Source of the DNA: Schaalia sp. ZJ405
Lineage (GTDB): Bacteria; Actinomycetota; Actinomycetes; Actinomycetales; Actinomycetaceae
Assembly: GCF_011038885.2 (NCBI RefSeq)
Contig: NZ_CP064952.1
Coordinates: forward strand, 372,001 to 436,000
Reading direction: 5' to 3'
DNA length: 64,000 bases
The position numbers and the translations under genes were made by a program. Position 1 is the stretch's first letter. Each line of letters begins with the position of its first letter. Below are positions 2,261-52,984 of this stretch, one piece after another. The notes beneath the pieces are model-generated. The model searched no databases, was not told the origin of the DNA, and saw only the letters and a program-made list of their open reading frames with translations.

Positions 2261-3349
2261 ATGACGATGTCCCCTCTATCTCGGAATCTCCGGGTGACGG
2301 AACTGCCGATCAACACCCTCCCACCGACGGTCCGCGCATTCCTTGATGGAATCGAGCGCGTGTGCGTGTACTCGGTGGATATGACAGCGCGTTTTCGCCG
2401 CGTGACTAGCCGTGACGGACTCTTTCTTCTCGGGGAAGCCGGATGGGGTGAAGCGGCGCCATTTTGGGACTATGACGCCGCGGAATCATCGCTGTGGCTG
2501 CGGAGTGCATACATCCAGGCAACACGCCCAGCCGTTGCGGTCGTGCGATCTTCCGTTGCCGTCAATGTCACGATCCCAGTTGTGGGGAACGAGGACGCAC
2601 AGCGCCGGGTTTGCGAATCCGGTGGCTGCCAGACGGCGAAAGTCAAAGTGGCTGACCCGGGAGTCTCCCTCGCTGAGGATGCGTCGCGGGTTGAAGCCGT
2701 GGCCGATGCGCTCGCGCGCAGTACCGGGGGACGAGGACGAATCCGCGTGGACGCTAACGGCGCGTGGAATCGCGACGACGCCGTTGACGCGATCCGAGTG
2801 CTTGACCGCGCAGCGTCTGCGGTTGGGGGGTTGGAATACGTTGAACAGCCGTGTGCGACGGTTGAGGACCTCGCCGCTGTTCGACGCCGCGTTGATGTTC
2901 CGATTGCGGCGGATGAGTCAATTCGTCGTGCGCATGATCCACTGGCGGTTGCCCGAGCCGAGGCCGCGGACATCGCGATCGTTAAAGTTGCTCCCTTGGG
3001 TGGGGTTGAACGGGCATTGAATATCGGAGCCGACACGGGTCTTGACGTCGTCATTTCTTCGGCTCTTGAAACGTCAATTGGTTTATCTGCCGGTGTTCGG
3101 GCTGCTGCGGCTCTCCCAGGGGGTGAGCGCGCCTGCGGACTGGCAACCGCTCAGTTGCTTCAAGGGGATGCTTGTGAGCCTCTTCTTCCTCGCAATGGGC
3201 GCATTGAGGTTCGAGCGGGGACGCTGGATGAGCGCTTCATTTCCGATGAGCCGGTGGATGAGCGTCTCGTTGAACGGTGGCAACGGCGCTTGAGGGACAT
3301 GGTGGATGCTCTTTCATGTCCGTTCCCAGGTGCGGAGAGGGCACATTGA
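2261..3349 (+). CDS. menC: o-Succinylbenzoate synthase (MenC)
   Basis: This enolase-superfamily enzyme dehydrates SHCHC to o-succinylbenzoate in menaquinone synthesis. The 362-residue protein has the barrel motifs in order: AKVKVAD (KxK catalytic lysine), RVDANGAWN (metal Asp), VEQPC (metal Glu), AADES (metal Asp) and IVKVAPLGG (second catalytic lysine). The chosen start, MTMSPLSRN, follows TAGGCT by 7 bases; longer in-frame starts would read through the menB promoter. The stop overlaps the menD start by one base (TGATG), indicating coupled translation. One copy of the 14-base dispersed repeat lies inside at 2727-2740, read as GGRGR. Confidence 0.93.
   Translation: MTMSPLSRNLRVTELPINTLPPTVRAFLDGIERVCVYSVDMTARFRRVTSRDGLFLLGEAGWGEAAPFWDYDAAESSLWLRSAYIQATRPAVAVVRSSVAVNVTIPVVGNEDAQRRVCESGGCQTAKVKVADPGVSLAEDASRVEAVADALARSTGGRGRIRVDANGAWNRDDAVDAIRVLDRAASAVGGLEYVEQPCATVEDLAAVRRRVDVPIAADESIRRAHDPLAVARAEAADIAIVKVAPLGGVERALNIGADTGLDVVISSALETSIGLSAGVRAAAALPGGERACGLATAQLLQGDACEPLLPRNGRIEVRAGTLDERFISDEPVDERLVERWQRRLRDMVDALSCPFPGAERAH
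2727..2740 (-). repeat. Dispersed 14-mer (TCGTCCTCGTCCCC), copy in menC
   Basis: Exact copy, minus orientation, inside menC just before the conserved RVDANG segment. Here it is read in a different frame (GGRGR) from the copies in menD, murB and menF. Confidence 0.7.
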
Positions 3350-5226
3350 TGGGTGATCATTTTCTGACACACGACCGCCCGCAGCCTGGTCACGACGCTT
3401 CTTCTCAGGAGGGTTTGGGGCAACAAACGCCCGGCGGGGATCACGCAGACCAGCGAGCTCACGAGATTCAGGAGTATCCGTCGATCACTCTCGCATGGGA
3501 CATCGTCGCTGCTCTCACCGCCTCCGGAGTACGCGATATCGTCTACTGCCCCGGATCCCGCTGCGCTCCCTTCGCCTATGTTCTCTACGCGGCGCAGCGC
3601 GCGAACACGGTTCGCACCCACGTGCGTCTTGACGAACGTTCCGCGGCGTTTCTTGCTCTGGGGCTGAGCCGCGGTTCAGACGATGAGTTCGGACTGGCTC
3701 CGGTGGCGATCGTGACAACGAGCGGCACTGCGGTCGCTGAGCTTCACGCCGGTGTTGTCGAGGCCTACCACTCCCACATTCCTCTGATCATCGTCAGCGC
3801 CGACCGCCCGAATCTTCTCCACGGTGTCGGAGCCTCGCAGACAACAACGCAGCGCGGAATTTTCGGACCTCACGTGGTGTCTGAACGTGAGCTGCACTCA
3901 ACCGAGGCGGGGTGTGATGCGGTTGGAGCCCGGGTGGAGCGTCTCGTCGCCCAAGCGCGAGGTCTTCCCCGCGGTGTTCCCGGACCCGTTCACCTCAACG
4001 TGTGTCTCGACACGCCCCTGGTTCCAGCTGATCTTCACGCTCTGAGAGTCCGCGCCGACTTGTCCCCATCGACGCCTCCGGCTGCCAGGGTGCGCGTCCT
4101 CGCATCTCCCATACGCCCAACGGCCTGGGACGAGGTCGTTGAGCCGGATTTACGCACGGTGATCCTCGCCGGAGACGGTGCCTCACCCCAAGCTCGCGAG
4201 TGGGCGCAGATGGCTCAGATCCCGATTTTTGCTGAACCAACAAGCGGCCTCGTTGGAACTGCCCACCATATTCCCTTCCAGCAGTCGCTCCTGAGCGATC
4301 CGGACGTGGCATCGTGTATCCAGCAGGTCATCGTCACGGGGAGACCAACCCTGTCTCGCCCCGTATCCGCTCTCCTCGCACGTGCCGACGTGCGCGTCGT
4401 CGTTGTTGGCGAAAGTGGGCAGTGGCCAGATGTTTCCGGTACGGCATCCTGCGTTGTTGCCGCACTTTCTCCCAGGGAACATTCCGGGGACGAGGACGAG
4501 GCCGACGTGCCCCGCATGAACGTCTGCGATGATGTCTCCACAACACCTGACGACGGACACACTCAGTGGCTTGCCGAACTGCGTGCGCGCGCACAGACAA
4601 CGCAGACTCGGATCGATGAAATCCTTGGACGCGGTGAACCTCAAGTTCCCACACTGATGCGTCTTGCCCGTCTCGTCTGGGAGTCGACTCAGGGTCCGCT
4701 GATCTTGGGGGCATCAAATACGATTCGCGCGGTTGATCTCGTTGCCCGGTGTAGGCGGGAAGGAATTGTCGTGGCGAACCGCGGCGCCGCCGGAATTGAC
4801 GGGACGCTGGCAACCGCGAGCGGAGTGGCACTGGCCCAAGCGAAGGCCACGACCGTCCTCGTTGGTGACCTGACCTTTCTTCACGACGCCTCAGCCTTGG
4901 CCCAGGGAGAGCACGAACTTACGCCCGCGCTCGACATCATCGTTGCTGATGACCGAGGGGGTGGAATTTTCGCCACCCTTGAGCATGGCAAAGCAGAGTA
5001 TTCCGATGTCTGCCGCCGGTGGTTTGCAACGCCTCAGTCGGTGGATCTCTCCTCGCTTGCACGGGCGTACGGAGTTGAATATCACCGCGGGACTTGCCTT
5101 GATGACTGTGCGGCGTTCCTGTCAACGCGCACCGAGGCTGCGGGGATGAGGATTCTTCATGTTCCGATTCGGACGGGCGTGGATGACTACGTGGATCTGC
5201 GCGCTGCGTCGCGACCCCAAAGGTGA
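3349..5226 (+). CDS. menD: SEPHCHC synthase (MenD)
   Basis: This thiamine-diphosphate enzyme condenses isochorismate with 2-oxoglutarate (SEPHCHC = 2-succinyl-5-enolpyruvyl-6-hydroxy-3-cyclohexene-1-carboxylate). Recognition comes from the N-terminal CPGSRCAPF segment, the catalytic Glu in DERSAAFLALG, TSGTAVAELHAGV, and the C-terminal cofactor region VGDLTFLHD and DDRGGGIFATLEHG. At 625 residues it is longer than the usual ~550. Extra length lies in an N-terminal tail of ~45 residues and a low-complexity insert carrying GDEDEAD, encoded by a dispersed repeat copy. The ATG at 3349 overlaps the menC TGA by one base, which fixes the start. Confidence 0.95.
   Translation: MGDHFLTHDRPQPGHDASSQEGLGQQTPGGDHADQRAHEIQEYPSITLAWDIVAALTASGVRDIVYCPGSRCAPFAYVLYAAQRANTVRTHVRLDERSAAFLALGLSRGSDDEFGLAPVAIVTTSGTAVAELHAGVVEAYHSHIPLIIVSADRPNLLHGVGASQTTTQRGIFGPHVVSERELHSTEAGCDAVGARVERLVAQARGLPRGVPGPVHLNVCLDTPLVPADLHALRVRADLSPSTPPAARVRVLASPIRPTAWDEVVEPDLRTVILAGDGASPQAREWAQMAQIPIFAEPTSGLVGTAHHIPFQQSLLSDPDVASCIQQVIVTGRPTLSRPVSALLARADVRVVVVGESGQWPDVSGTASCVVAALSPREHSGDEDEADVPRMNVCDDVSTTPDDGHTQWLAELRARAQTTQTRIDEILGRGEPQVPTLMRLARLVWESTQGPLILGASNTIRAVDLVARCRREGIVVANRGAAGIDGTLATASGVALAQAKATTVLVGDLTFLHDASALAQGEHELTPALDIIVADDRGGGIFATLEHGKAEYSDVCRRWFATPQSVDLSSLARAYGVEYHRGTCLDDCAAFLSTRTEAAGMRILHVPIRTGVDDYVDLRAASRPQR
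4486..4499 (-). repeat. Dispersed 14-mer, copy in menD
   Basis: Exact copy, minus orientation, read as SGDEDEA in a variable insert of MenD rather than in a conserved segment. Confidence 0.75.
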
Positions 5227-5336
5227 ACTCCGTCTATTCCAGGAAACTTCCAGATAACTGTCAGTGTTCGGGGAAGAAATACGTGCACACTGTTTCCTGA
5301 ACGCAGCACCACTGGTGACATGACCAAGAAGGAAAT
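5227..5336. promoter_or_regulatory. menD-htrA gap with spaced inverted repeat
   Basis: This 110-base gap has TTCCAGGAAAC at 5237-5247 and GTTTCCTGAA at 5292-5301, an almost complementary pair about 45 bases apart. A good ribosome site (AAGGA) precedes the htrA ATG. A regulator site or promoter is plausible but unproven; no terminator is obvious. Confidence 0.3.
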
Positions 5337-6998
5337 ATGAGCGACGAAACATTTGATCCCCGCGAGGGACGCGACGTACAGGACGCCCCCGAAGCGGAGC
5401 CACAAACGACTCCTGGAAACATGGAATCGCAGGGCTCCGCGTGGAGCCCTCAGTCCGACGCAGGGATGCCGCCCGTCACCGAAACTCCGGGCGCATCCGG
5501 CGAGCCTCAGTTTGGTGGGGCCGCAGCATCGTCCTCGTCCAATGCTCCGTCGGAATTCCCTCCACCGGTTGCCAGCACACGTATCCAGGGATACCCGGGA
5601 CCGCATGCCGGTGAGGAAATGTCGCATCCCACCCCTGATGAGCAGCCGACACGCCCCAGCAATCCCTTTGCGGCTCCGACGGGCAGGCAAACGCCGACGT
5701 CGATGACCGCACCTCAACCGCCTATTGCGCCACAAACGCCTCAAGCGCCACAACCGATGATGACGACGAACACCTCACGGGGTCGTGCCCGCTCGAAGGG
5801 ACCGGGATGGGGAGCACTTATCGTCGCGATGGTTGTCACCGCCCTTGTCACCGCCGGCGGTTTCTGGGGAATTGGCGGAGCACTCGGCCTGTTCTCTCAT
5901 GCAGAATCGTCGGGATCAACAGCGCACTCGTCCTCGTCCACCTCCTCGACCACGCAGACCGTGCCGAAGGTGCCGACGTCGGGGGAAAGCGCGAACTGGC
6001 AGGCCGTTGCCAAAGCTGTCTCACCGGCGGTCGTGACGATCTCCGTTGTGGGGCAAAACGCCTCGGGCGTTGGCTCGGGAGTGATCTACGACGCCAAGGG
6101 TGACATCGTCACGAACTATCACGTGATCTCCAAAGCGATCGGATCCAAGGGCGGCCTGTCCGTCACGCTCGCCGATGGGCGAATCTACGACGCGGAGATC
6201 GTGGGATACGACCAGACAACCGATCTCGCCGTCATCAAACTCGTCAACGCCCCCTCGGATCTGACGGTCGCCTCTTTCGGTTCATCGAAGGACTTGGCGG
6301 TCGGCCAGCAAGTCATGGCCATCGGCGCCCCCCTCGGGTTGTCGAACACGGTGACGACGGGGATTGTTTCGGCGCTGAATCGTCCGGTTGAAGTGTCGGC
6401 CCGAGAAGAACGGGAACCGCAGGAACCCAACCCTCTCGACCCGTTTAACCAGCTGCCGAACCTGCGCGGCCAACAGCAAGCGGGATCGGAGTCAGTCATC
6501 ACGAACGCGATCCAAGTGGATGCGTCGATCAACCCCGGAAACTCCGGTGGGCCGCTGTTCAACGCAAACGGTGCGGTCATTGGCATTAACTCGTCGATCG
6601 CGTCGATGTCGTCAACGTCGTCGGAGGCTGGATCTATCGGCTTGGGCTTCGCGATCCCCGCCGACCTCGTCACTTCCGTTGCTGACCAGCTCATCGCCAA
6701 TGGTACAGCCGACCACGCGGTTCTTGGGGTGTCAATTACCACCGGTGAAGTCGACGTTGACGGGGCAACGAAAGCCGGTGCGAAAGTTGCCCAGGTGAGT
6801 CCCGGCGGCGCAGCGGCTGCGGCAGGAATTCGCGAGGGCGATGTCATCGTTGCCGTCAACGGTTCCGAGGTGTCGTCAGCTAAGCAGCTCACCGGCTACA
6901 TTCGCCGCTACAAAGGTGGAGACGAGGTGAGCGTGTCGGTTGTCCGTGACGGCAAGGTCGAGGACATTAAGACAACGCTTCAATCCCAGTCGAGGTAG
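5337..6998 (+). CDS. Membrane-anchored HtrA/DegP-type serine protease with PDZ domain
   Basis: This is an envelope quality-control protease. Order in the 553-residue protein: a disordered Pro/Ser-rich cytoplasmic region (about 1-155), one membrane segment (about 157-186), a Ser/Thr linker, a trypsin-like domain, and a C-terminal PDZ domain (about 455-550, with GIREGDVIVAVNG). The triad is visible as His262 (NYHVIS), Asp296 (TTDLAVIKL) and Ser403 (NPGNSGGPLF). Start ATG has AAGGA 5 bases upstream. The layout matches actinobacterial HtrA/PepD proteins. It sits between menD and menF with no evident functional link. Two shortened copies of the dispersed repeat (5529, 5928) encode Ser runs. Confidence 0.93.
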   Translation: MSDETFDPREGRDVQDAPEAEPQTTPGNMESQGSAWSPQSDAGMPPVTETPGASGEPQFGGAAASSSSNAPSEFPPPVASTRIQGYPGPHAGEEMSHPTPDEQPTRPSNPFAAPTGRQTPTSMTAPQPPIAPQTPQAPQPMMTTNTSRGRARSKGPGWGALIVAMVVTALVTAGGFWGIGGALGLFSHAESSGSTAHSSSSTSSTTQTVPKVPTSGESANWQAVAKAVSPAVVTISVVGQNASGVGSGVIYDAKGDIVTNYHVISKAIGSKGGLSVTLADGRIYDAEIVGYDQTTDLAVIKLVNAPSDLTVASFGSSKDLAVGQQVMAIGAPLGLSNTVTTGIVSALNRPVEVSAREEREPQEPNPLDPFNQLPNLRGQQQAGSESVITNAIQVDASINPGNSGGPLFNANGAVIGINSSIASMSSTSSEAGSIGLGFAIPADLVTSVADQLIANGTADHAVLGVSITTGEVDVDGATKAGAKVAQVSPGGAAAAAGIREGDVIVAVNGSEVSSAKQLTGYIRRYKGGDEVSVSVVRDGKVEDIKTTLQSQSR

Positions 6999-7132: not shown

Positions 7133-7146
7133 GGGGACGAGGACGA
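7133..7146 (-). repeat. Dispersed 14-mer, intergenic copy after htrA
   Basis: Exact copy in the htrA-menF gap, 10 bases from the menF stop. It extends to 16 bases (through GAGC) in common with the copy at 8256-8271, and it is flanked by GCGC-type sequence. Confidence 0.8.
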
Positions 7147-7155
7147 GCGCGCGCC

Positions 7156-8439
7156 CTATTCCACTCCAAGGACCGTCAGGAGCGGAGCCATTTTTGCTCG
7201 GGTTTCGGCCAACTCAGACCGCGGATCAGAGTCGGGCATGATGCCGCACCCTGCGAAGACCCGGAGAGTGAGAGCATCGTCGCTGAGCTGCCCGCACCGC
7301 AGTGCCAAAGCGATTTCGCCTTCCCCGCTGTGATCCATCCAGCCGACGGGACCGGAGTAGCGTCCCCGCTCGGTGCGTTCACATTCGTCAAGCAAAGCAA
7401 GGGCACGTGCCCGTGGGGTTCCACAGACCGCAGCTGTGGGATGAATGTGGTGAACAACGTCGAGGACAGTTCGCCCGTCGAGAGATCCCTCGATATCACT
7501 GGCCAGGTGGGCGACATTCGGTAAGTCAAGAATGAAAGGGCCAGCCGCTTCCTCGCGGGGGATTCCGGCGTCGTCGAGCGCATCTGTGACGGAACGCACG
7601 GCGAGACGATGTTCGCGTCGATTCTTATCGGAGTTCATCAGGTCCTCACCGCGTCCGGCCGGAGCGGTTCCAGCGAGGATCCGTGAGCGGAAACGCCCGT
7701 TCGATGCCGATGCGAGCATCTCCGGAGTGGCTCCAACGAGCCCGGCGACCGAAAAACGCCACGTCGTTGGGAAATGTCGGCCAAGCGCCGACACGATTTC
7801 ACGGACACTGAGCGGCGTGGTGGCCCTAATTGATAAGTCACGCGCCATGACAACCTTCGAGGCTGCGCCCTCGTTGAGCTTGTCGATAATGTGCGTCACC
7901 GAGCGTCTCCACTCGTCCTGCGTCATCCGCCCCGGAAGCATCGACAGTTCCGTGGGCTCAGGCAGGGGAATTGCGGTGCTCGTCGCCTCATCATGCAGGT
8001 GTCGCGCGGCTTCGAGGGGATCGTCAACCTCGTCGAGGGCGCGCGTGCGAGCAGTGGTTGCCACCCAACGCTCATCCTCCACGTCAACGATCAACGTGCG
8101 AGGGATCACAACCGCTGAGGGAGTGCGTGAGTGAAAACCCTCGGAAATAAAGGCCAGCGGGAACTGAAGATCGGATGGCTGGGGATCCGAGGGACAGCGA
8201 ACAAGCTCAACGATGGTGCGCCACAGCATTCCCAGTGTGTTGGGGGTGAGTGCGCGCTCGTCCTCGTCCCCGATGACGGAGCCGAAACCGACGGCGCGCA
8301 GGCGCGGGCCGAACCACGCGCAAGACTCCACGCCCGGCAGGAGAAACTCATCAAGGGGAACGGAACGTAACGGCGACGAGGACGGAATCCGCTCCACCCG
8401 GACTGCCAGTGGGAAGGATGCGGAAACCGAGTGATGCAT
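7156..8439 (-). CDS. menF: Isochorismate synthase (MenF)
   Basis: This chorismate-binding enzyme converts chorismate to isochorismate, the entry step of menaquinone synthesis. Landmarks are KVVMARD with the general-base lysine, DLPNVAHLASDIEG, HPTAAVCGTPR, ERGRYSGPVGW and AGCGIMPDSDP near the C-terminus. It is 427 residues from MHHSVSASF. That start lies 7 bases after TACGAT (TANNNT), suggesting a leaderless mRNA; an ATG 9 bases upstream would overlap this box. An entC-type (siderophore) role is possible by family, but the men neighbours argue for menaquinone. The dispersed repeat at 8258 is read as IGDEDERA. Confidence 0.92.
   Translation of the reverse strand: MHHSVSASFPLAVRVERIPSSSPLRSVPLDEFLLPGVESCAWFGPRLRAVGFGSVIGDEDERALTPNTLGMLWRTIVELVRCPSDPQPSDLQFPLAFISEGFHSRTPSAVVIPRTLIVDVEDERWVATTARTRALDEVDDPLEAARHLHDEATSTAIPLPEPTELSMLPGRMTQDEWRRSVTHIIDKLNEGAASKVVMARDLSIRATTPLSVREIVSALGRHFPTTWRFSVAGLVGATPEMLASASNGRFRSRILAGTAPAGRGEDLMNSDKNRREHRLAVRSVTDALDDAGIPREEAAGPFILDLPNVAHLASDIEGSLDGRTVLDVVHHIHPTAAVCGTPRARALALLDECERTERGRYSGPVGWMDHSGEGEIALALRCGQLSDDALTLRVFAGCGIMPDSDPRSELAETRAKMAPLLTVLGVE
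8258..8271 (+). repeat. Dispersed 14-mer, copy in menF
   Basis: Exact copy, plus orientation. On the menF coding strand it is read as GDEDER. The shared 16-base form runs 8256-8271. Confidence 0.75.
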
Positions 8440-23625: not shown

Positions 23626-25188
23626 ATGGAAAACACTATGATTGCAGCGAACATCCCGTGGCTGACGCTTCTCGTTGCCCTTCCCGCAGCGGGAGCCCTG
23701 ATCCTCGCGATTATTCCGTCGATCCGGCGCAGCTCGGGTAATCTCCTCGCTCTGGCCATCTCGGTCATTGAACTGATCCTCGCGGTGGTCGCGTCGATCG
23801 TCTCCTTCGACTGGTCGGCATCGGGCACCTATCAGATGGTCGAGTCGGTTCCGTGGATTCCTCAGATGGGTGTTTCCTGGGCTCTGGGTGTCAACGCCCT
23901 GGGCTTGGTGATGATCCTTCTCGCGGTCGCCCTCGTCCCCCTCGTCCTGATCGCCGGACTCAAAGACGACGGAAACTCACGCGACGCGGGTGCGTACTCG
24001 GCCCTCGTGCTTGCGCTTGAGGCCTTCATGGTTCTGATCTTTGCCGCCTTCGATGTGGTTGTCTTCTACATCGCCTTCGAGGCAATGCTGGTTCCGCTCT
24101 ACCTGATGATTGGTCGCTACGGAGTGGGGGACGCGGTCAAGCGCCGCGCCGCCGCCATGAAGTTCCTCCTGTACTCACTGGCCGGCGGACTTGTCATGCT
24201 CGGTGGGCTCGTGGCCCTGTGGGCGGGCGCAGCCGAGCATTCGGACACCTACTTCCGTCTGGACTCACTGGCGAGTTCCGCCCCGGCGCTTTCCGGAGCA
24301 CTGCAGATGGGTGTCTTCGTGACCTTCATCGTTGCCTTCGCCATCAAGGCGCCGATGGTTCCTGTCCACACGTGGCTGCCCGACACTGCCGAGGTGGCGC
24401 GTCCGGGAACCTCGGTGCTGCTTGTGGGTGTTCTCGACAAGATCGGCACCTTTGGAATGATCACGCTGTGCGTGCGTCTGTTCCCGGATGCTGCCACGGA
24501 TGCCCGGTGGGTGCTTGTGGGCCTGGCGGTCCTGTCAATCCTGTGGGGTGCGTTTGCAGCGAACGGACAGGACGACATCATGCGTCTCGTGTCCTACACC
24601 TCGGTGTCGCACTTTGGTTTCATGGTCCTGGGAATTTTCATCGGATCTGAGATTGCTCTCGTCGGCGCCATGTTCTACATGGTGGCCCACGGCGTGTCGA
24701 TCGCCGCGATGTTCCTCCTGTCGGGGTGGCTGTCGAGTCGCGGCGGCACGCAGGACATGCGCGAATACTCCGGTATGCAGCGCGTGACTCCGGTACTGGC
24801 AGGCCTGTGGCTGGTTTCCGGTCTTGCATCGGTCGCGCTTCCCGGTCTTTCGGGCTTCGTTCCCGAATTCCTTGTCCTCATGGGCACGTGGAAGGTCAAC
24901 GTTCTTGTCGCAGTCCTCGCTGTGCTGGGCGTCATCCTTGCGGCGCTCTATATCCTCACCCCCTACCAACGGGTGTTTACGGGCGCACCTCGCGAAGACA
25001 AGATCGGTCTTCACGACTTGTCCGGTCGTGAAAAGACGGTGATGACTCCGCTTATCGCCGCGATGCTGATCCTGGGTATCTGGTCAGCTCCGCTCATCGG
25101 AGCGCTGACCCCCATCGCCTCTGACTCCGTGTTGTCACACGACGCGGGGGCTCAGGCGCAGACCTTGTCAGAAGGGAGCACGAAGTGA
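23626..25188 (+). CDS. nuoM: NADH-quinone oxidoreductase subunit M
   Basis: An antiporter-like subunit of 520 residues with 14 or so membrane segments. Characteristic stretches are FEAMLVPLYLMIGRYG and KAPMVPVHTWLPDTAEVARP. It starts 14 bases after nuoL; an internal ATG 12 bases further in (MIAANIP) is an alternative start. Confidence 0.95.
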   Translation: MENTMIAANIPWLTLLVALPAAGALILAIIPSIRRSSGNLLALAISVIELILAVVASIVSFDWSASGTYQMVESVPWIPQMGVSWALGVNALGLVMILLAVALVPLVLIAGLKDDGNSRDAGAYSALVLALEAFMVLIFAAFDVVVFYIAFEAMLVPLYLMIGRYGVGDAVKRRAAAMKFLLYSLAGGLVMLGGLVALWAGAAEHSDTYFRLDSLASSAPALSGALQMGVFVTFIVAFAIKAPMVPVHTWLPDTAEVARPGTSVLLVGVLDKIGTFGMITLCVRLFPDAATDARWVLVGLAVLSILWGAFAANGQDDIMRLVSYTSVSHFGFMVLGIFIGSEIALVGAMFYMVAHGVSIAAMFLLSGWLSSRGGTQDMREYSGMQRVTPVLAGLWLVSGLASVALPGLSGFVPEFLVLMGTWKVNVLVAVLAVLGVILAALYILTPYQRVFTGAPREDKIGLHDLSGREKTVMTPLIAAMLILGIWSAPLIGALTPIASDSVLSHDAGAQAQTLSEGSTK

Positions 25189-32123: not shown

Positions 32124-32137
32124 TCGTCCTCGTCCCC
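32124..32137 (+). repeat. Dispersed 14-mer, intergenic copy before murB
   Basis: Exact copy followed by ATTTTG, 18 bases before the murB ATG and just upstream of its ribosome site. Confidence 0.8.
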
Positions 32138-32155: not shown

Positions 32156-33301
32156 ATGTCCGCCCCGACCCTCGCTGACCTGACGACGCTACGTGTCGGC
32201 GGCCCTGTCGCTCAATTTGTCCGCTCCCAATCCGAGAGCGAATTCATCGAGGCGGTTGCCCAGGCGGATGCCACGGGTCTGCCTCTGCTCGTCATCGGCG
32301 GTGGATCGAATCTCCTCGCCTCGGACGCTCCCTTTGAGGGGGTCGTTGTCTCCCACGGCGTCGCTGCCATTACTCAGCACCCCGCACCCGCGGTCGGTGC
32401 GGGTCCTCTTCCTGATGGAGAGGGCGCCCCGGTGTCCTCGGATACTTCGGGGGACGAGGACGAGGCTGTCCGTGTGATCGCTTCCGCAGGGACGACCTGG
32501 GACGAACTTGTTGCCTGGACCGTTGACCGTGGTCTGTCGGGACTTGAGGCGTTGTCGGGGATCCCTGGGACAGTCGGTGCAGCTCCCGTGCAAAACATCG
32601 GCGCATACGGTCACGAAGTCGCTGAGTTCCTTGAAAGCATTCGGGCGTGGGATCGGCAGGAACACCGCGAGGTGACGCTCACGCGTGAGCAGATGGCTTT
32701 CGGCTACCGAACCTCCGTGATCAAGCGTTCGATCCTGGAAAGCGGATGGGGACCAACGGGACGATGGGTTGTCCTTGAGGTGACCTTCCGGCTTTGTCGA
32801 TCACACCTGAGCGCTCCGATCCTGTACAGCCAGCTTGCGAGCAGTCTCGACGTGGAACAGGGTGACGTGGTCGCTTCTCGTCGCGTCCGTGAAGCTGTCC
32901 TGAGCCTGCGTGCCTCAAAGGGGATGGTCCTCACCCCAGGTGATCACGACACGTGGTCCGCGGGGTCGTTCTTCACGAACCCGATCATCCCCTCATCTGC
33001 GGCATCGGTCATTGACGAGGACGCCCCGCGGTATCCCGCGGGGGAAGCCGCTGATGGCACCCCCCTGGTGAAAACATCGGCGGCGTGGCTTATCGAACAC
33101 GCGGGATTTACGAAGGGGTTCGCGCTTCCGGGCGAGGGACGGGCTGCGTTATCGTCGCGTCATGTGCTCGCGCTGACAAACCGTGGGGGAGCCACAGCAC
33201 GCGAGATCGCCGATCTTGCCCGCGCCATTCAGCGGGGCGTGGAGGACACTTTCGGGATCCATCTTGTCCCCGAGCCGGTCTGCCTCGGTATTGACCTCTA
33301 G
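32156..33301 (+). CDS. murB: UDP-N-acetylenolpyruvoylglucosamine reductase (MurB)
   Basis: This FAD enzyme makes UDP-N-acetylmuramate for peptidoglycan. TTLRVGGPVAQFV and VIGGGSNLL bind FAD; GIPGTVGAAPVQNIGAYG and FGYRTSVIKR follow; AGSFFTNP contains the Ser that acts as proton donor in type I MurB. The protein is 381 residues. An insert of roughly 35 residues (about 75-108) before the VRVIASAGTTWDELV segment is Pro/Gly/acidic and encodes GDEDEA from a dispersed repeat copy. ATG follows GAAGGAG with good spacing. Confidence 0.95.
   Translation: MSAPTLADLTTLRVGGPVAQFVRSQSESEFIEAVAQADATGLPLLVIGGGSNLLASDAPFEGVVVSHGVAAITQHPAPAVGAGPLPDGEGAPVSSDTSGDEDEAVRVIASAGTTWDELVAWTVDRGLSGLEALSGIPGTVGAAPVQNIGAYGHEVAEFLESIRAWDRQEHREVTLTREQMAFGYRTSVIKRSILESGWGPTGRWVVLEVTFRLCRSHLSAPILYSQLASSLDVEQGDVVASRRVREAVLSLRASKGMVLTPGDHDTWSAGSFFTNPIIPSSAASVIDEDAPRYPAGEAADGTPLVKTSAAWLIEHAGFTKGFALPGEGRAALSSRHVLALTNRGGATAREIADLARAIQRGVEDTFGIHLVPEPVCLGIDL
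32450..32463 (-). repeat. Dispersed 14-mer, copy in murB
   Basis: Exact copy in minus orientation within the non-conserved insert of MurB, read SGDEDEAV. The same residues occur in the MenD insert. Confidence 0.75.
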
Positions 33302-36772: not shown

Positions 36773-36786
36773 TCGTCCTCGTCCCC
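36773..36786 (+). repeat. Dispersed 14-mer, intergenic copy before tRNA-Trp
   Basis: Exact copy in the 189-base divergent gap between the aminotransferase and tRNA-Trp, preceded by GCGCC and followed by AATATG. Confidence 0.8.
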
Positions 36787-40155: not shown

Positions 40156-40169
40156 TCGTCCTCGTCCCC
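40156..40169 (+). repeat. Dispersed 14-mer, intergenic copy before rplJ
   Basis: Exact copy preceded by TGCGCG. Its 11-base core is repeated in inverted orientation 15 bases downstream. Confidence 0.8.
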
Positions 40170-40181
40170 TTTCCTGCTATT

Positions 40182-40192
40182 GACGAGGACGA
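40182..40192 (-). repeat. Inverted partner core of the 40156 repeat
   Basis: GACGAGGACGA is the exact complement of the TCGTCCTCGTC core at 40156-40166. Together they could form an 11-bp hairpin with a 15-base loop. Confidence 0.8.
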
Positions 40193-41895: not shown

Positions 41896-41906
41896 TCGTC
41901 CTCGTC
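41896..41906 (+). repeat. Shortened dispersed repeat before the fucosidase
   Basis: TCGTCCTCGTC core with the flank GCGCGC upstream and AATTTAG downstream; the CCCC end is replaced by AAT. Confidence 0.65.
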
Positions 41907-42017
41907 AATTTAGTTGAAAATATGACCAATGAGGGGTGACTCTCTGCTACTGTCACGTACCGTCCAACAATGATGTTGGGTGTCTCCACAGCACTGCGCT
42001 AACCCGAAGAAGGGCTC

Positions 42018-46013: not shown

Positions 46014-46026
46014 CATGTGAGGATGT

Positions 46027-46054: not shown

Positions 46055-46064
46055 CGTCCTCGTC
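46055..46064 (+). repeat. Shortened dispersed repeat after the fucosidase hairpin
   Basis: CGTCCTCGTC directly abuts the 3' arm of the hairpin and is followed by AATGCG, as at 41907 (AATTTA). Confidence 0.6.
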
Positions 46065-46178
46065 AATGCGCATCACAATGGAAAGCCCACTGATCACGGG
46101 ATGCCCGAGGTGAGGCAAGGACCACGTCGAGGGAATTTGCTTGACGCGCAGAGAATCGCTAACATTTTCACTTGTCGA

Positions 46179-46253
46179 TCCCGCGTAGCTCAACGGCAGA
46201 GCATCCGACTGTTAATCGGACGGTTACTGGTTCGAATCCAGTCGCGGGAGCCA
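46179..46253 (+). tRNA. tRNA-Asn (GTT)
   Basis: TCCCGCG pairs with CGCGGGA. The anticodon stem CCGA/TCGG encloses a loop with GTT. CCA is encoded. No duplicated 3' end that would mark an integrated element is visible nearby. Confidence 0.95.
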
Positions 46254-46341
46254 CACGAACGGCCCGGAGTCAGCGAAAAGTTGATCCGGGTCGTTTCGCA
46301 TATTCCCGGAAATCTCGCTGTGGCTGCCCGAGGGGGAGAGC

Positions 46342-46764: not shown

Positions 46765-46860
46765 ATAACGATTTTGTAACGAGATGGCGTTGAGCATTCG
46801 TCTTTTCCGACAGAGTGTTCTACTCTTGAGTCACGCCAAAGAGGGCGGCAGTTGATCTCT

Positions 46861-46884
46861 GGTTTCGTTAGCGTTAACGAAACC
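46861..46884. promoter_or_regulatory. LacI-type operator upstream of the sugar ABC transporter
   Basis: Perfect 10-base arms GGTTTCGTTA and TAACGAAACC enclose GCGT. The centre, TTAGCGTTAA, resembles operators of LacI-family sugar regulators. It lies 48 bases before the transporter start. A possible -10, TACTCT (46831-46836), lies about 25 bases upstream. The LacI protein encoded at 54438 is the natural candidate; this is inference. Confidence 0.6.
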
Positions 46885-46931
46885 GGGGAGGCCCAGGAAC
46901 AACGTAGTTACTGGTACCCAAGGGGTGAGAA

Positions 46932-48452
46932 GTGACGAACTTACTTGAATTAAAGGGGATTTCCAAGACATTTCCCGGTGTCAAGGCACTGTCTGATGTG
47001 GATCTTGACTTGCGCGCCGGGGAAATTTTGGGACTCTGCGGTGAGAACGGTGCCGGCAAGTCGACGCTGATGAAAGTCCTCACCGGTATCCACAAAGCAG
47101 ATCCGGGGGGTGAGATCTGGCTCCAGGGGGAAAAAGTTGAGATTCGCGGAACGAATCATGCTCGTGACCTCGGCCTGAGCATCATTCACCAGGAACTCAA
47201 TATCATCCCGGACCTCACGGTTGCACAGAATCTCTATATCGGGCGTCCCCGCTCCCATCGGGGCGGCTACATTTCCGACCGTCAACTGGTCAAAGACGCG
47301 CGTGAACTCTTTGAGCGCCTCAATATGGAGCTGAACCCGAATGATGTCTGCCGCGATCTTCCAGTTGCTCGCTTGCAGATGCTCGAAATCGCACGTGCTC
47401 TGTCCTATGAGTCAACAAAGATCCTCGTCATGGACGAGCCGACGGCTCCGCTGACAACCACGGAAACGGATCAGCTTTTCGAGCTCGTTCACAACTTCAT
47501 TACCCCGCAGACGGGCCTGATCTTCATTACTCACCGTATGCCCGAACTTGCACGCATGACCGATCGCATCGCAGTTCTGCGTGACGGTCAGTACATCGGA
47601 ACGGTCGATACGGCCACAACCCCGATGCCCGAGGTCATCAAGATGATGGTCGGTCGTGCAGTCCCCGCGGATGCACGTCCCACCACGAAGCCGATCTCGG
47701 ATGAAGTCCTTCTCAAGGTTGAAGGCTTGTCAACGAAGAAGACCGTCCATGACGTGTCCTTCGAGGTCAAGAAAGGTGAGATTTTCGGCTTCGCCGGTCT
47801 TGTTGGCGCGGGTCGTACCGAGGTCGCACGCGCGCTGTCGGGTGCTGACCCCCACACGGAAGGTGAGATCTTCATCAACGGACAAAAGGTGAAGATCCGC
47901 AATGCCACGGACGGTGTGAAGAATGGCATCGGCTACCTGTCCGAGGACCGTAAACAGTACGGTCTTCTCCTGGATAAGTCGATCGCTTTCAACACAGCGC
48001 TTGCGTCGATGGATCAATTCAATAAAGCAGCGGTGATTACGAGCGGCAAGATTGAAAAAGTCGCTCAAGAATACGTTGACAAGCTGCGTACCCGTTGCCC
48101 GGGAATCGACACCGAGGTTCGGGCACTCTCGGGTGGTAACCAGCAGAAGGTCGTCATTGCTAAGTGGTTGGTTCGTGACGCTGAGATCCTCATCTTTGAC
48201 GAGCCAACACGCGGTATTGATGTCGGCGCGAAAGACGAGATTTACACACTGTTGGAAGAACTTGCCCGTCAGGGGAAGGCAATCATCGTGATTTCATCCG
48301 AGTTGCCGGAGGTTCTGCGGTTGGCCAACCGCGTCGCCGTGATGGCTCATGGCCGAATCATTGGCACACTCAATAACGAGGATGCCACCCAGGAAAGCAT
48401 TATGGAATTGGCCACCGTCGGCCAGGAAGAAGTGAACGGAGAAGTCGCGTGA
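46932..48452 (+). CDS. Sugar ABC transporter ATP-binding protein (RbsA/MglA type)
   Basis: A 506-residue protein with two fused nucleotide-binding domains. The first has Walker A GENGAGKST and Walker B ILVMDEPTAPL; the second has the degenerate GLVGAGRTE, LSGGNQQKVVIAKWL and ILIFDEPTRGIDVGAK, as in all members of the CUT2 family. It energises uptake of a monosaccharide, probably L-fucose from context. GTG start follows AAGGGGTGAGAA. It overlaps the permease by 4 bases. Confidence 0.93.
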   Translation: MTNLLELKGISKTFPGVKALSDVDLDLRAGEILGLCGENGAGKSTLMKVLTGIHKADPGGEIWLQGEKVEIRGTNHARDLGLSIIHQELNIIPDLTVAQNLYIGRPRSHRGGYISDRQLVKDARELFERLNMELNPNDVCRDLPVARLQMLEIARALSYESTKILVMDEPTAPLTTTETDQLFELVHNFITPQTGLIFITHRMPELARMTDRIAVLRDGQYIGTVDTATTPMPEVIKMMVGRAVPADARPTTKPISDEVLLKVEGLSTKKTVHDVSFEVKKGEIFGFAGLVGAGRTEVARALSGADPHTEGEIFINGQKVKIRNATDGVKNGIGYLSEDRKQYGLLLDKSIAFNTALASMDQFNKAAVITSGKIEKVAQEYVDKLRTRCPGIDTEVRALSGGNQQKVVIAKWLVRDAEILIFDEPTRGIDVGAKDEIYTLLEELARQGKAIIVISSELPEVLRLANRVAVMAHGRIIGTLNNEDATQESIMELATVGQEEVNGEVA

Positions 48453-49453
48453 GCACCAGTGTCAACGCAAAGGCAGCGAAGACCCCAAACCCGGCGGCTG
48501 CCTTCCTTAATCGAAACATGCAGCTGCTCCTTGTGGCGGTTGCGCTTGTCATCATCTACGTCTACTTCATGTTTGCTGCGCCAGGATTCTCGCAGCCGAA
48601 GATCCTCACGGACATCCTCCTCCAGGCGGCATTCACTGGAGTCATGGCCTTCGGTGCGACATTCGTCATCGCAACCTCAGGTATCGACCTTTCCGTCGGT
48701 ACGGGCATGACCTTGGTTGCAGTGATGGGAGGTGTCTTCCTTTCGGGTGATTGGATGAACCTTCCTCTGGGCGTGGGACTTATCCTCATCCTCGTCGTCG
48801 GTGCGTTTATCGGTCTGATCAACGGTATCAACGTCTCTTTCCTCGGTCTGCCACCGTTTATCGCAACGCTCGCAATGATGATGGTCGCGCGCGGTCTTGC
48901 CCTGGTGATCTCCGGAAAAGCAACGATCTCCATCGCGAACAGCGGATACATCGCCCTGTCGACGGGATCGCTCATTCCGGGACTGTCTAACGCTGCGCTG
49001 ATCTTCATTGTTCTGACGATTCTTGCTGCCTTCCTTCTCAACAAGACTCTGCTTGGCCGTTACGCACTGGCAATCGGATCGAACGAGGAAGCCACGCGTC
49101 TTTCCGGTGTGAATGTCCGCCTGTGGAAGCTCATCATCTACACGGTCGCCGGTGTCTTCATGGCGATTGGCGCAATCCTCTACTCGGCACGATTTGGATT
49201 CGTTCAGCCTGCTGAGGGTGTGGGCTTCGAGCTCAACGTCATCGCCGCAACCGTTATCGGTGGAACCTCCCTCGCCGGTGGTCGCGCATCGATTCCAGGA
49301 GCCTTTGTTGGCGCGCTCATCATGGAGACTCTGAAGAAAGGCCTGACGATGATGGGTGTTCCCTCTGAGTGGCAGCTCGTTGTCACCGGTATCGTCGTGC
49401 TCCTCGCGGTCTTCATTGACAACATTCGCCGCGCTCGTGAGAACGCCGCCTGA
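48449..49453 (+). CDS. Sugar ABC transporter permease (RbsC type)
   Basis: A 334-residue integral membrane protein with about ten hydrophobic segments. [13 protein letters not shown] and the later [31 protein letters not shown] are signatures of CUT2 permeases. It would form a homodimeric channel with the ATPase. GTG start inside the preceding stop region. Confidence 0.93.
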
Positions 49454-49585
49454 TCTCGGCATCCGCGAACATTATCCAGACTTACTGAGCACCCCGTTCA
49501 GTATTCATCGAGAAGAAAACGGACTCGCTGTCCACCAAATGAACAGGTTCAGAAATATCTGAACCACCCCACGAAAGGAAAACAC

Positions 49586-50644
49586 ATGCGCCCCATCGGA
49601 CGTATCGTTGCCGCCGCTGCTGTCGGCACACTTGCCCTCGGCATGGCCGCTTGCTCCACATCGATGGACAAGGGCTCCGAAGGCTCAGACAAGGAAATGA
49701 TGTCGGACTCTTCGGCTGAGGGTGAATCCGCTCTGCCGACCGAGCAGTCCGAAGAAGTTCCTGAAGGTGATGGTACCAAGACCATTTACCTTGTTTCCAA
49801 GGGCTTCCAGCACCGCTTCTGGCAGGCAGTGAAGGAAGGCGCTGAGGAAGCTGGCGAAAAGTACAAGTACAAGGTTGAGTTCGTTGGCCCCGACGATGAG
49901 ACCAAGGTGACCCAGCAGCTCGATCAGCTCCAGGCTGCGTTGGACACCAGCCCCGCCGCGATCGGCCTCGCAGCCCTCGACTCGAGTGCTGCAACCCCGC
50001 TGCTCAACAAGATCAAAGATCAGAACATTCCTCTTATCGCTTTCGACTCCGGTGTTGATTCCGACATTCCGTTGACCACGGTTGCAACGAGCAACACCGA
50101 TGCTGCCGCCGAAGCAGCCAAGCACATGATTGAGATGCTTGATGGCAAGACCGGCTCCGTTGGTCTGATCTGCCATGACGCTACCTCGGCCACCGGCAAG
50201 CAGCGTTGCGAAGGCTTCAAGGACTACTTCAAGAAGAACGCTCCCAAGGGCCTGATGCTCCTCGACGAGCAGATCGCTGGCGAGGTCGGCAAGGCTGCTG
50301 ACACCTCGAAGGCCATTATCCAGGCGAACTCCGACATTGTCGGCATCTACGGCTCCAACGAAGCTGCTGCTTCGGGCGCCATCCAGGGCAAGAACGAGTC
50401 GGGCAAGTCCGAAGTTGTTGTTGTCGGTTTCGACTCTGGCAAGACCCAGATCGCTGCAATCAAGGACGGTTCGCAGGCCGGTGCAATCACCCAGGCTCCC
50501 AAGCTCATCGGCTTCAAGACGGTGACCGCTGCAATTCAGGCACTCAACAACATCCCGCTGCCGAAGGTCATTGACTCCGGCTTCTACTGGTACGACAAGT
50601 CCAACATTGACGCCGAGGACATCGCTCCGAACCTCTACGAGTGA
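49586..50644 (+). CDS. Sugar-binding lipoprotein of the ABC transporter
   Basis: A 352-residue substrate-binding protein. The lipobox LGMAAC places the lipidated cysteine at residue 23. An acidic Ser-rich linker precedes a type 1 periplasmic-binding fold (TIYLVSKGFQHRFWQAVKEGAEEAG, IPLIAFDSGVD, IYGSNEAAASGAIQ, VVVGFDSGKTQIAAI). Ligand is not determined by sequence; L-fucose is the best guess from neighbours. AAAGGAAAACAC precedes the ATG. It lies 132 bases after the permease, without a terminator. Confidence 0.92.
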   Translation: MRPIGRIVAAAAVGTLALGMAACSTSMDKGSEGSDKEMMSDSSAEGESALPTEQSEEVPEGDGTKTIYLVSKGFQHRFWQAVKEGAEEAGEKYKYKVEFVGPDDETKVTQQLDQLQAALDTSPAAIGLAALDSSAATPLLNKIKDQNIPLIAFDSGVDSDIPLTTVATSNTDAAAEAAKHMIEMLDGKTGSVGLICHDATSATGKQRCEGFKDYFKKNAPKGLMLLDEQIAGEVGKAADTSKAIIQANSDIVGIYGSNEAAASGAIQGKNESGKSEVVVVGFDSGKTQIAAIKDGSQAGAITQAPKLIGFKTVTAAIQALNNIPLPKVIDSGFYWYDKSNIDAEDIAPNLYE

Positions 50645-50976
50645 TCCGAGGATCCTGGACACATCAACCCAGGACGGTGATACGGACCGGTACATCAGAT
50701 CCGGCACGTAACACCGCCTAGCTCAAAGCCTGCTGTGGTCGGGCACCGGGACACAGACCGTGCCCGACCACAGCAGCTCACACATATCAGGCGCATATAT
50801 CGTGTGCGGTCGTGCCGCTTTGGCAAAGCCCACCGGCGTTTGCTGCGTCAACGTCAGCATTAACGGTGATAGGGGATTTCCCAACAGCACCCGAAAATAT
50901 ACGCCGATACCAAGGAATCCGAGGGGCTTGAATGGCCCCCAACACCACTTATAGATGAAAGAAGATCAGAGAAGAC
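50645..50976. other. 332-base gap between the binding protein and fucI
   Basis: It contains a strong hairpin (50730-50776) ending the transporter operon and a separate promoter for fucI. TTGAAT (50928-50933) and TATAGA (50950-50955) are spaced by 16 bases, 21 bases before the ATG. The rest shows no ORF of note. Confidence 0.55.
50730..50776 (+). terminator. 17-bp hairpin ending the transporter operon
   Basis: CTGCTGTGGTCGGGCAC and GTGCCCGACCACAGCAG pair perfectly with a 13-base loop. The following bases are CTCACAC, so it is an intrinsic-type stem without a T-run. Confidence 0.65.
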
Positions 50977-52740
50977 ATGAGCCATCATCCCCGTATCGGA
51001 ATCCGCCCCGCGATTGACGGCCGCCGCCGTGGCGTCCGCGAAAGTCTGGAAGACCAGACAATGGGCATGGCGAACCGCGTCGCCAAGCTGTTCACCGAGA
51101 ATCTGCGCTACCCCGACGGCGAACCCGTTGAGGTTGTCATCGCCGACACGACAATCGGTCGCGTCCACGAAGCGAAAGCATGCGCCGAAAAGTTCCAGGC
51201 AAACAACGTAGGCCTGACCCTGACGGTCACCCCGTGCTGGTGCTACGGCACGGAAACCACGGACATGGATGCGACGATGCCGCACGCGATCTGGGGTTTC
51301 AACGGCACTGAGCGTCCCGGCGCGGTCTACCTTGCCGCTGCGCTTGCAGGCCACGCCCAGATCGGTATCCCCGCTTTCGGTATTTACGGCAAGCAGGTTC
51401 AGGATGCCGACGACGAGTCAATTCCCGAGGACGTGCGCCAGCGTCTCCTCGACTATGCAACTGCCGGTCTTGCCGTCGCGCAGATGCGTGGCGAAGCGTA
51501 TCTGTCGATGGGGTCAGTGTCGATGGGTATTGCCGGCTCAGCTGTGACCCCCGACTTCTTCGGTCCCTACCTGGGCATGCGTAACGAATACATTGACATG
51601 TCCGAGTTCACGCGCCGTATCGACGAGGAAATCTACGACAAGGACGAATACGAGAAGGCCTACGCGTGGATCCGCGAGAACTTCACCCAGGGTGAAGACT
51701 TCAACGATCCTGAGGGTCAGTTCCCCGAGAAGCACGAAGACTGGTGGAAGTTCGTCACGAAGATGACGCTCATTGGTCGTGACCTCATGCACGGTAACCC
51801 GAAGCTTGCTGAGCTGGGCTTCGAGGAAGAGGCGGGTGGCCACGGAGCCATCGCTTCCGGTTTCCAGGGACAGCGCCAGTGGACGGACCACTTCCCCAAC
51901 GGCGATGTCATGGAGACCATTCTCAACACGAACTTCGACTGGAATGGTGCTCGTCAGCCCTCCGTCATGGCGACGGAAAACGACTCCCTCAACGGCGCAT
52001 CAATGCTCTTCGGTCACCTGCTGACGAATACTCCGCAGATCTTCTCCGATGTGCGCACCTACTGGTCACCCGAGTCCATTGAGCGTGTCACCGGATGGAA
52101 GCCTGAGGGTCGCGCCGCGGCCGGTATCCTCGACTTGCGTAATTCCGGCTCGACGACTCTCGACGGTGCGGGCAAGGCCGTCCGCGACGGTGAGAATGTC
52201 ATCAAGCCCTGGTGGGAGATTACCGAGGACGATCAGAAAGCCGCCCTTGAGGCAACAACATTCCACCCGGCAGCCACCGGATACTTCCGTGGTGGCGGCT
52301 TCTCAACTCACTTCCGTACCTCCGGTGAGATGCCGGTGACGATGTGCCGCATCAACCTTGTGCGCGGCCTCGGACCGGTCATGCAAATCGCCGAGGGCTG
52401 GACCGTTGAGCTGCCCGACGAGGTGGCAACGATCATTGAGAACCGCACGGACCGTGCCTGGCCGACAACGTGGTTCGTTCCCAACCTCACCGGTGAAGGT
52501 GCGTTTGCATCCGTGTACGACGTGATGAACAACTGGGGAGCTAACCACGGTGCGATCTCCTACGGTCACATCGGTGGTCAGCTCATCACAATGGCCTCAA
52601 TGCTCCGCATCCCGGTGAATATGCACAACGTTCCCCAGGAGCGTGTCTTCCGCCCGAAGGCATGGTCGCTGTTCGGTACCGAGTCCCCCGAGGGCGCGGA
52701 CTACCGTGCATGCCAGACCTTCGGTCCGCTCTACCGTTGA
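50977..52740 (+). CDS. fucI: L-fucose isomerase
   Basis: A Mn-dependent aldose-ketose isomerase converting L-fucose to L-fuculose. The 587-residue protein starts [20 protein letters not shown], typical of FucI, and has [44 protein letters not shown] and [11 protein letters not shown]; Glu of TEND and Asp of DVR probably correspond to the metal-binding residues known from E. coli FucI. Length matches the family (~590). Its own promoter separates it from the transporter operon. D-arabinose isomerase activity is a known side reaction of the family. Confidence 0.94.
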
Positions 52741-52772
52741 GATGAATCTCTGACCATGTCATGAGGTCTTTT

Positions 52773-52785
52773 GGGGACGAGGACG
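52773..52785 (-). repeat. Dispersed repeat, 13 of 14 bases, after fucI
   Basis: GGGGACGAGGACG followed by G instead of A. It is preceded by TCTTTT, matching the A-rich flank seen after CCCC in other copies. Confidence 0.75.
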
Positions 52786-52970
52786 GACCGACTTTCTCCA
52801 CGAATGCACGGCTGTACTTGGCGGCTGCGCTTCGTGGAGGGGTCGTCCTCCTCGTCTCCCTCAACCTCCCGCTCGCGCTCAGTCAAGCGCGTTTTAGTGA
52901 GCCCGGCATGACGACGTGGCTCTCACACTCTTGCGGACGAGGATCCGGCACCGGGCTGGTATCCTCGTGC

Positions 52971-52984
52971 TCGTCCTCGTCCCC
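52971..52984 (+). repeat. Dispersed 14-mer, intergenic copy before the kinase
   Basis: Exact copy, preceded by CTCGTGC and followed by GAAACT. It is inverted relative to the copy 185 bases upstream. Confidence 0.8.

Follow-up and report, generated by a model that had tools for sequence, protein, structure and literature searches.

According to the available part of a 2025 paper, DNA self-labelling for uptake is known only in the Neisseriaceae and the Pasteurellaceae (PMC12616744), both of them families of proteobacteria. The DUS of the Neisseriaceae occur as eight dialects with ComP as receptor, and in the excerpted accounts they number hundreds to thousands of copies per genome, form terminator-linked inverted pairs and are missing from genomic islands (PMC3630211, PMC7371117). 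The inner core of the Pasteurellaceae USS, GCGG, lies within AAGTGCGGT and ACAAGCGGT, as these words are given in the same part of the 2025 paper (PMC12616744). In its accessible text, the paper on transformation of Micrococcus luteus (PMC4322843) does not once use the term "uptake sequence". Here we describe a short word in a member of the Actinomycetaceae which, judging from its sequence and distribution, is quite probably a DNA uptake sequence maintained by biased uptake, and neither a DUS nor a USS.

The window, the whole 64-kb stretch of DNA analysed, holds nine exact copies of a 14-mer, all at the coordinates given in an earlier note on this DNA, five on the plus and four on the minus strand. 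Our own gene calls agree with the note that five of the nine are non-coding: 7133..7146 (minus strand) lies between convergent genes, 32124..32137 (plus) 18 bases ahead of the called murB start, 36773..36786 (plus) upstream of tRNA-Trp, 40156..40169 (plus) upstream of the ribosomal L10 gene, and 52971..52984 (plus) ahead of an FGGY kinase gene. The remaining four are antisense inside genes, namely those for an enolase-superfamily protein (2727..2740, minus), a TPP enzyme (4486..4499, minus) and a chorismate-binding enzyme (8258..8271, plus), and murB (32450..32463, minus, codons 99-103), where the matches in many congeners stop just before the word. The 13/14 copy reported at 52773 is present (52773..52786, minus, intergenic), as are others at 5928..5941 (plus, with a CCAC tail), 23927..23940 (plus, with TCGC at its start) and 57532..57545 (plus, with CGG in the core); copies of TCGTCCTCGTCAAT lie at 41896..41909 (plus, intergenic) and 60921..60934 (minus, inside a gene), and one of TCGTCCTCGTTCAT at 63718..63731 (plus, intergenic). 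The note's list of shorter cores contained one wrong position, 17393 for a site truly at 17383. Matches with at most two mismatches number 27 in the window against 1.13 expected from shuffles. The genome-wide count that it had proposed as a check gave 112 exact copies in 2.35 Mb (61 plus, 51 minus), an excess present on both strands, against 0 for the reversed 14-mer as a control in the same genome. In a 444-kb sample the word ranked first among 14-mers with at least eight copies, with 34 found and 0.17 expected.

The 14-mer itself, which the note had taken as the unit, exceeds what is conserved. The near-invariant part is the core TCGTCCTCGT, with weaker flanks (preferably C-S-N-S-C before and Y-M-M-Y after), and the conserved span is only about 19 bases. 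Two tails are common, CCCC and CAAT, and in the 444-kb sample the CAAT form TCGTCCTCGTCAAT has 19 copies to the 34 of the 14-mer. When every copy was used to train a wide weight matrix, the matrix wandered off into codon periodicity; it was discarded, and the motif was then derived from intergenic copies alone.

Copies of the word also pair. The exact 14-mer at 40156..40169 (plus) and a TCGTCCTCGTCAAT copy at 40179..40192 (minus) face each other as the left and right arms of one inverted pair ahead of the L10 gene, with a predicted RNA hairpin of -22.5 kcal/mol. In the sample of this genome we observe seven facing pairs with loops of 9-17 bases, where some 1.35 would be expected over loop lengths of 0-51, an expectation which is about twofold too low because it counts same-dialect partners only; direct pairs are in excess as well (10 in the same sample). 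The inverted pairs proposed by the earlier note are in excess and predicted to fold into stable hairpins, while their placement at gene ends (14 of the 15 pairs with both neighbours called) is weak, since the qualifying classes make up 72% of the intergenic bases in the sample.

Some congeners carry the word with one base changed, as CG[T/C/G]CCTCGT. Counts of SCYCG[T/C/G/A]CCTCGT with T/C/G/A at the variable position are 416/50/37/46 in the genome of the window, 170/1085/187/47 in G173 and 39/25/489/46 in G162, and one base is clearly dominant in 15 of the 35 genomes of the genus. Dialect words also emerge unsupervised in the intergenic DNA of several relatives. For the pattern SCYCGNCCTCGTYMMY, 21 of the 35 genomes exceed every one of 178 genomes from other genera of the family (323 matches in our genome and 511 in G173, with a maximum of 37 outside the genus); the other 14 do not exceed that outside maximum, and G170, G175, G159 and G149 have 0, 6, 7 and 14 matches. 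In some high-GC congeners (G146, G167 and G171) each of the four bases is found at the variable position. Their counts may therefore include codon bias, a contribution which the reversed-word control leaves in place. All ten G-dialect genomes present in a MurB tree of 30 genomes form one 100/100 clade, although this tree was built from tblastn-derived rows of a single gene and its deep nodes are weak; dialects with a common inner core along the phylogeny are clear in the 15 genomes with a dominant base, against a one-gene tree. Other enriched words were seen. One, ACCGATGGTGACGG, is confined to one region with nine copies in 1.8 kb, those of G150, G163 and G145 are local arrays, and GAAGTCCGCTCTG of G157 has eight copies, in three of four stretches and mostly clustered.

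A prophage of about 35 kb, singled out after the gap in the word had been noticed, carries 0 copies against 16.5 expected, at a similar GC content; scarcity in recently acquired mobile DNA is seen in this one prophage. A 160-kb stretch (1547713-1707839) without exact 14-mers at first looked like an acquired island, a reading that was then rejected, for three 20-kb samples of it hold 16 copies of TCGTCCTCGT and the lack of exact 14-mers is due to chance. Hundreds of dispersed copies on both strands and none in one prophage would also be in keeping with a word bound by a nucleoid-associated protein, or by one that organises the chromosome, whose specificity shifted among species. A consensus as strong as this one is untypical of such sites, an argument made for the USS in the excerpted part of PMC1626085. 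Furthermore, the word lacks polarity, as the earlier note had said of its strands (exact 14-mers are 32 plus/29 minus in one contig half and 29 plus/22 minus in the other), and its gaps are distributed like those of random points (spacing CV 1.03). A shift in specificity would also require hundreds of sites to change without copying or drive, yet one base dominates in the 15 genomes noted above, and we regard this explanation as unlikely.

The same counts bear on a Chi-like recombination or repair signal, which would bias incorporation after uptake and so place the drive at recombination instead. A signal of this sort might likewise lead to drive and to dialects, and be missing from newly arrived DNA. 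The Chi sites that are known have a strong polarity along the replichores. The near-equal strands in both contig halves show no bias of the kind seen in Chi or KOPS-type polar sites, and hairpin pairs are not predicted by a signal of this type, which makes it more doubtful still than a nucleoid-protein site.

The word is denser between genes than within them (0.90 against 0.39 per kb in our genome, 2.64 against 0.27 in G173). It might be argued that the word acts in transcription, as a promoter, operator or terminator, or that codon usage produces it, on the grounds that the inverted pairs fold into stable hairpins and that SSSS and DEDE are frequent among the peptide strings encoded by the word. 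However, intergenic copies of TCGTCCTCGT in the divergent, ++, convergent and -- classes (17/14/7/12) track the sizes of these classes (18391/18247/10017/19060 bases), the majority of copies sit inside genes on either strand, the intergenic excess is independent of codons, and the prophage of similar GC is devoid of the word. As such, we hold either origin to be highly improbable.

Within genes, substitution at codons of weak conservation gave rise to most copies. Ungapped columns hold 31 of the 39 alignable intragenic copies in our genome, with an alignment identity of 0.45 at the word against 0.64 in the control, and 25 of 27 in seven other genomes; the gap rate of 8/39 at words is above the 57/921 of the control. 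Least credible of all is a miniature mobile repeat of the REP/MITE type spread by copying, for which the hundreds of near-identical copies, the inverted pairs and the raised gap rate might speak, but against which stand the absence of PF01797 (Y1/RAYT transposase) from all 35 genus genomes (0/35), the short conserved span, the few insertion scars among intragenic copies, and the single codon frame per orientation held by 21 of 22 intragenic 14-mers. The alternatives that the earlier note had listed (nucleoid site, recombination hotspot, miniature repeat) all fare worse than an uptake sequence.

Competence genes, the other check that the note had suggested, are present: the genome encodes comEA, comEC and dprA together with two Tad-pilus clusters. 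Its TadE/G-like minor pilins are encoded at 96820-97137, at 97134-97550 and in 1714686-1716337, and its ComEA at 1454711-1455532. Of the 14 genomes that stay within the outside maximum for the word, comEC is found in all except G150 and G172, and DprA and the pilus ATPase exceed the cut-off in all except G150, so that word presence and competence genes do not match one-to-one, genome by genome. In G150, which is 70% complete, none of the three is over the cut-off and a clear word was not found. Loss of the word along with competence in G150 was dropped as support, given this completeness and the finding that G149, next to it in the MurB tree, likewise shows no clear word even with the full set of three genes.

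The likeness to DNA-uptake sequences suggested by the earlier note came through most of the tests made at the level of sequence, namely the excess, the lack of polarity, the permissive sites, the hairpin pairs, the dialects, the absence from one prophage and the competence set, and an uptake sequence remains our preferred reading. It is reasonable to postulate that the non-palindromic motif, roughly C-S-N-S-C-TCGTCCTCGT-Y-M-M-Y in this species, is the target of a DNA receptor which the competence machinery exposes at the cell surface, with a Tad minor pilin or ComEA as the likeliest place, and that DNA bearing the word would be preferentially taken up. Uptake bias together with homologous recombination could then spread the word by molecular drive: variants nearer the receptor's preferred word would be imported more often, and copies would accumulate by point substitution where coding and regulation permit, in intergenic DNA and low-constraint codons, while newly arrived phage DNA would be without it. 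Were the receptor's preference to shift in a lineage, the genome would follow, which may have produced one-base dialects around a common CCTCGT core; the inverted pairs were probably co-opted as transcription terminators. With somewhat less assurance, we also think it likely that the word represents a third, independently evolved uptake-sequence family, in the Actinomycetota, read via a Tad/Flp-type competence pilus and split into three or more dialects that differ by one base (CGTCCTCGT, CGCCCTCGT and CGGCCTCGT, with CACCCTCGT as a possible fourth), by which the species of one genus are labelled and in part isolated. If this is true, DNA self-labelling evolves repeatedly and with different pilus types, here in a Gram-positive genus with an unrelated word; molecular drive could be put to the test in a third lineage, an actinobacterial uptake receptor should be findable through dialect covariation, and DNA tagged with the word might be of use in transforming these bacteria.

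Compared with the DUS, as the excerpted sources describe them (PMC3630211, PMC7371117), the word has in common its many copies, species dialects with a short inner core, inverted pairs, permissive sites and lack in a prophage. It differs in sequence, as the CTG inner core common to all DUS dialects in the available descriptions is absent from the core word: CTG is in neither TCGTCCTCGT nor its complement, and is met only in copies whose loose tail runs CCCCTGA. The copies are also fewer (112 exact 14-mers and 416 of SCYCGTCCTCGT, against 2245-5918 in the DUS dialect counts available), and the host is an actinobacterium of the Actinomycetaceae, not the Neisseriaceae, with Tad/Flp-type pilus genes. 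With the Pasteurellaceae USS (Hin and Apl types) it shares, going by the excerpted part of PMC1626085, a core with weaker flanks, types by subclade and a substitution origin, the count of gapped alignments being somewhat different (115/474 for USS, 8/39 here). The USS words AAGTGCGGT and ACAAGCGGT, as listed in the available part of PMC12616744, resemble none of the dialects here, host and pilus type are unrelated, and by word comparison the USS inner core is absent from our core and its complement. GCGG does occur, outside any USS 9-mer, in the flanks of some copies and in the complement of the G173 word. A close counterpart in machinery is the Flp (Tad) pilus-dependent transformation of Micrococcus luteus, as set out in the accessible text of PMC4322843, which likewise joins comEA/comEC and two tad clusters in an actinobacterium.

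The earlier note listed nine exact copies of the dispersed 14-mer TCGTCCTCGTCCCC in the window, all at correct coordinates, and proposed a whole-genome count, which we find to be 112, far above chance, with 61 copies on the plus and 51 on the minus strand of the single contig (2,345,961 bases) of Schaalia sp. ZJ405. The window covers bases 372001-436000 of this contig. Read backwards, TCGTCCTCGTCCCC does not occur anywhere in this genome. One ZJ405 protein has three named matches at 73-78%, in Pauljensenia hongkongensis, an Actinomycetaceae MAG and Schaalia georgiae, in line with a place in Actinomycetaceae. In a 444-kb sample (the window plus the final 380 kb of the contig), 34 copies were found against 0.17 expected under an order-5 Markov model, and TCGTCCTCGTCCCC ranked first among 14-mers having at least 8 copies. 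Its near-invariant core word, TCGTCCTCGT, was present 135 times in this sample against 19 expected (all tabulated with their flanks), with CCCC and CAAT as the commonest tails. The motif derived from 70 intergenic matches to an 11-mer, one mismatch being allowed (the reversed 11-mer gave 2), reads C-S-N-S-C, TCGTCCTCGT, Y-M-M-Y, beyond which the information is small.

Exact TCGTCCTCGTCCCC is abundant in ZJ405 only, the next highest count among 213 genomes of the family being 12. When k-mers were ranked in 10 congeners, using 80 kb per genome (genomes of the genus are numbered G143 to G176), related words came up. A second ranking, of intergenic DNA alone in 24 congeners, gave such words first or nearly first place in several: CGCCCTCGT in G173 and G157, CGGCCTCGT in G163, G155, G143, G162 and G148, and, weakly, CACCCTCGT in G159, with weak or no signal in the remainder of the 24. 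G157 also carries GAAGTCCGCTCTG in 8 mostly clustered copies, distributed over three of its four 20-kb stretches. Species forms, or dialects, differ by one base (N) in CG-N-CCTCGT, and whole-genome counts of SCYCG-N-CCTCGT were taken in 35 genomes for N = T/C/G/A. T is dominant in ZJ405 (416/50/37/46); C is commonest in G173 (170/1085/187/47), G169 (113/253/72/76), G157 (88/244/52/62) and G156 (85/200/54/78). G is commonest in G162 (39/25/489/46), G163 (36/37/478/60), G166 (39/24/468/54), G168 (33/32/439/48), G165 (36/32/430/58), G147 (32/33/416/54), G148 (32/29/388/50), G155 (29/27/320/53), G143 (22/13/316/41) and G160 (38/41/160/28), and weakly so in G152 (2/0/60/11), G158 (1/3/42/10), G161 (2/3/49/6) and G164 (5/1/53/6). 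The dialect is mixed, sometimes leaning to C, in G145, G146, G151, G153, G154, G167, G171, G172, G174 and G176, and this census gave no clear dialect in G144, G149, G150, G159, G170 and G175. All four bases are common in G146 (295/369/288/212), G171 and G167, which points to relaxation of the word or else to codon bias. Reversed-word controls never exceeded 30 per genome and were usually below 10, and do not remove codon bias. The fuller pattern SCYCGNCCTCGTYMMY exceeds 37, the maximum among 178 genomes of 35 other genera, in 21 of the 35 genomes. A MurB tree covering 30 genomes includes ten with the G dialect (six strong and four weak), and these fall together in a single clade supported at 100/100; support deeper in the tree is weak, and ZJ405 lies on a long branch.

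Genes were called within this analysis and are uncurated. On these calls, 12 of the 34 exact copies in the ZJ405 sample are intergenic (intergenic DNA being 65,715 of 443,962 bases), 13 antisense and 9 sense within genes, and 21 of the 22 intragenic copies share a single reading frame in each orientation (SSSS or GDED). Frames of TCGTCCTCGT are less strict, the sense copies falling mainly in two (24 and 21 of 47). The core used for densities, CGTCCTCGT, reaches 0.90 per kb between genes versus 0.39 within (504 kb). Elsewhere in this genome, a region with nine ACCGATGGTGACGG words (2251289-2253042) looks like a repeat protein of the calcium-binding DxDxDG type. The window itself holds fucose-use genes at 42018-54463, namely an alpha-L-fucosidase with F5/8 domains (42018-46013), an L-fucose isomerase (50977-52740) and an FGGY kinase (52916-54463); at 16000-28000 AT skew is strongly negative (to -0.275) across a run of long plus-strand genes, whose order resembles that of a respiratory complex I operon.

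Intergenic TCGTCCTCGT counts are roughly proportional to the bases available in four neighbour-orientation classes, so that these copies show no tie to promoters. A site polar to replication is unlikely, as the gaps between the 112 TCGTCCTCGTCCCC copies vary as they would for points placed at random (CV 1.03) and the first half of the contig has 32 plus and 29 minus copies, the second half 29 and 22. GC skew is mostly positive in early and mostly negative in late samples, which fits an origin close to base 1. The Y1/RAYT transposase family, which a miniature repeat might involve, was found in none of the 35 genomes.

As to how intragenic copies arose, 106 copies of TCGTCCTCGT in 504 kb were examined; 39 were located in alignments with relatives' proteins, 10 lay beyond the aligned part, and the remainder had no such relative. 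Scoring a copy as gapped when at least half of its relatives show a gap there, 31 placed copies were ungapped and 8 gapped (864 and 57 for random segments of the same proteins), and identity at the word was 0.45 versus 0.64 in the control; in seven other dialect genomes combined, 25 of 27 were ungapped. Most copies are thus the product of point substitution, not insertion, and lie where conservation is weak, some of them in stretches prone to indels. This kind of test is taken from a USS study, which gives gaps in 115 of 474 alignments (PMC1626085).

The ZJ405 sample has 7 facing pairs whose loops measure 9-17 bases. For loops of 0-51 about 1.35 would be expected, a figure about twofold too low because same-dialect partners alone were counted. 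Direct pairs are also in excess (10), and part of the pairing is therefore local clustering. Among 19 facing pairs across five species, 3 lie in genes, 1 has a single called neighbour, and at least one neighbouring gene ends at 14 of the other 15; this gives gene-end placement weak support, since such classes already make up 72% of intergenic bases in the ZJ405 sample. Predicted hairpins range from -13.9 to -32.4 kcal/mol.

The longest core-free stretch in the final 380 kb (41.7 kb, 2041664-2083380) contains a prophage that encodes terminase, portal, head, tape-measure and endolysin proteins and an integrase; all 10 proteins scanned match PHROGs families. This prophage, of tailed-phage type, spans about 2043000-2081000, outside the window, and also has capsid and PAPS-reductase-like genes. 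The core is absent from 35 kb of it against 16.5 copies expected at the density of the remainder (P about 7e-8), for a single case chosen after the gap was noticed. Its own composition predicts 0.5 copies, so what the prophage lacks is the excess.

A search for competence genes, also suggested in the earlier note, found comEA (SLBB and HHH_3) adjoining comEC in ZJ405, and two tad (Flp-type pilus) clusters with T2SSE and T2SSF proteins, a DUF4244 pilin-like protein and TadE/G-like proteins. DprA is also found in ZJ405. Beyond ZJ405, comEC is present in 32 and DprA in 33 of 34 congeners, and a pilus ATPase scores over the cut-off in 34 of the 35 genomes. Word and competence genes are not matched genome by genome in these 35: among the 14 without a high SCYCGNCCTCGTYMMY count, 12 carry comEC, and 13 carry both DprA and an ATPase over the cut-off. 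In G150, a single-contig genome scored 70% complete, comEC and DprA are unmatched and no ATPase exceeds the cut-off; all three are present in G149, a near neighbour. G150 also holds eleven repeats with a CRISPR-like period (C1:503776-504539, spacing 71-78 bases).

Among the papers found by full-text searches of open-licence literature, none reports such a word for Actinomycetota, as judged by titles and abstract openings. Micrococcus luteus has the same gene set as ZJ405; its transformation is abolished by loss of ComEC, and Flp pili take part (PMC4322843). Inverted pairs of the DNA uptake sequence (DUS) of Neisseriaceae are linked to terminators (PMC3630211). The joint pattern described here is that of DUS and of the uptake signal sequence (USS) of Pasteurellaceae, and no rival fits as well. 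The earlier note had drawn the likeness to both. Membership in either family fails on sequence and host; on our analysis, it is most likely that the word functions as uptake sequences do, while lying outside both the DUS and USS families.
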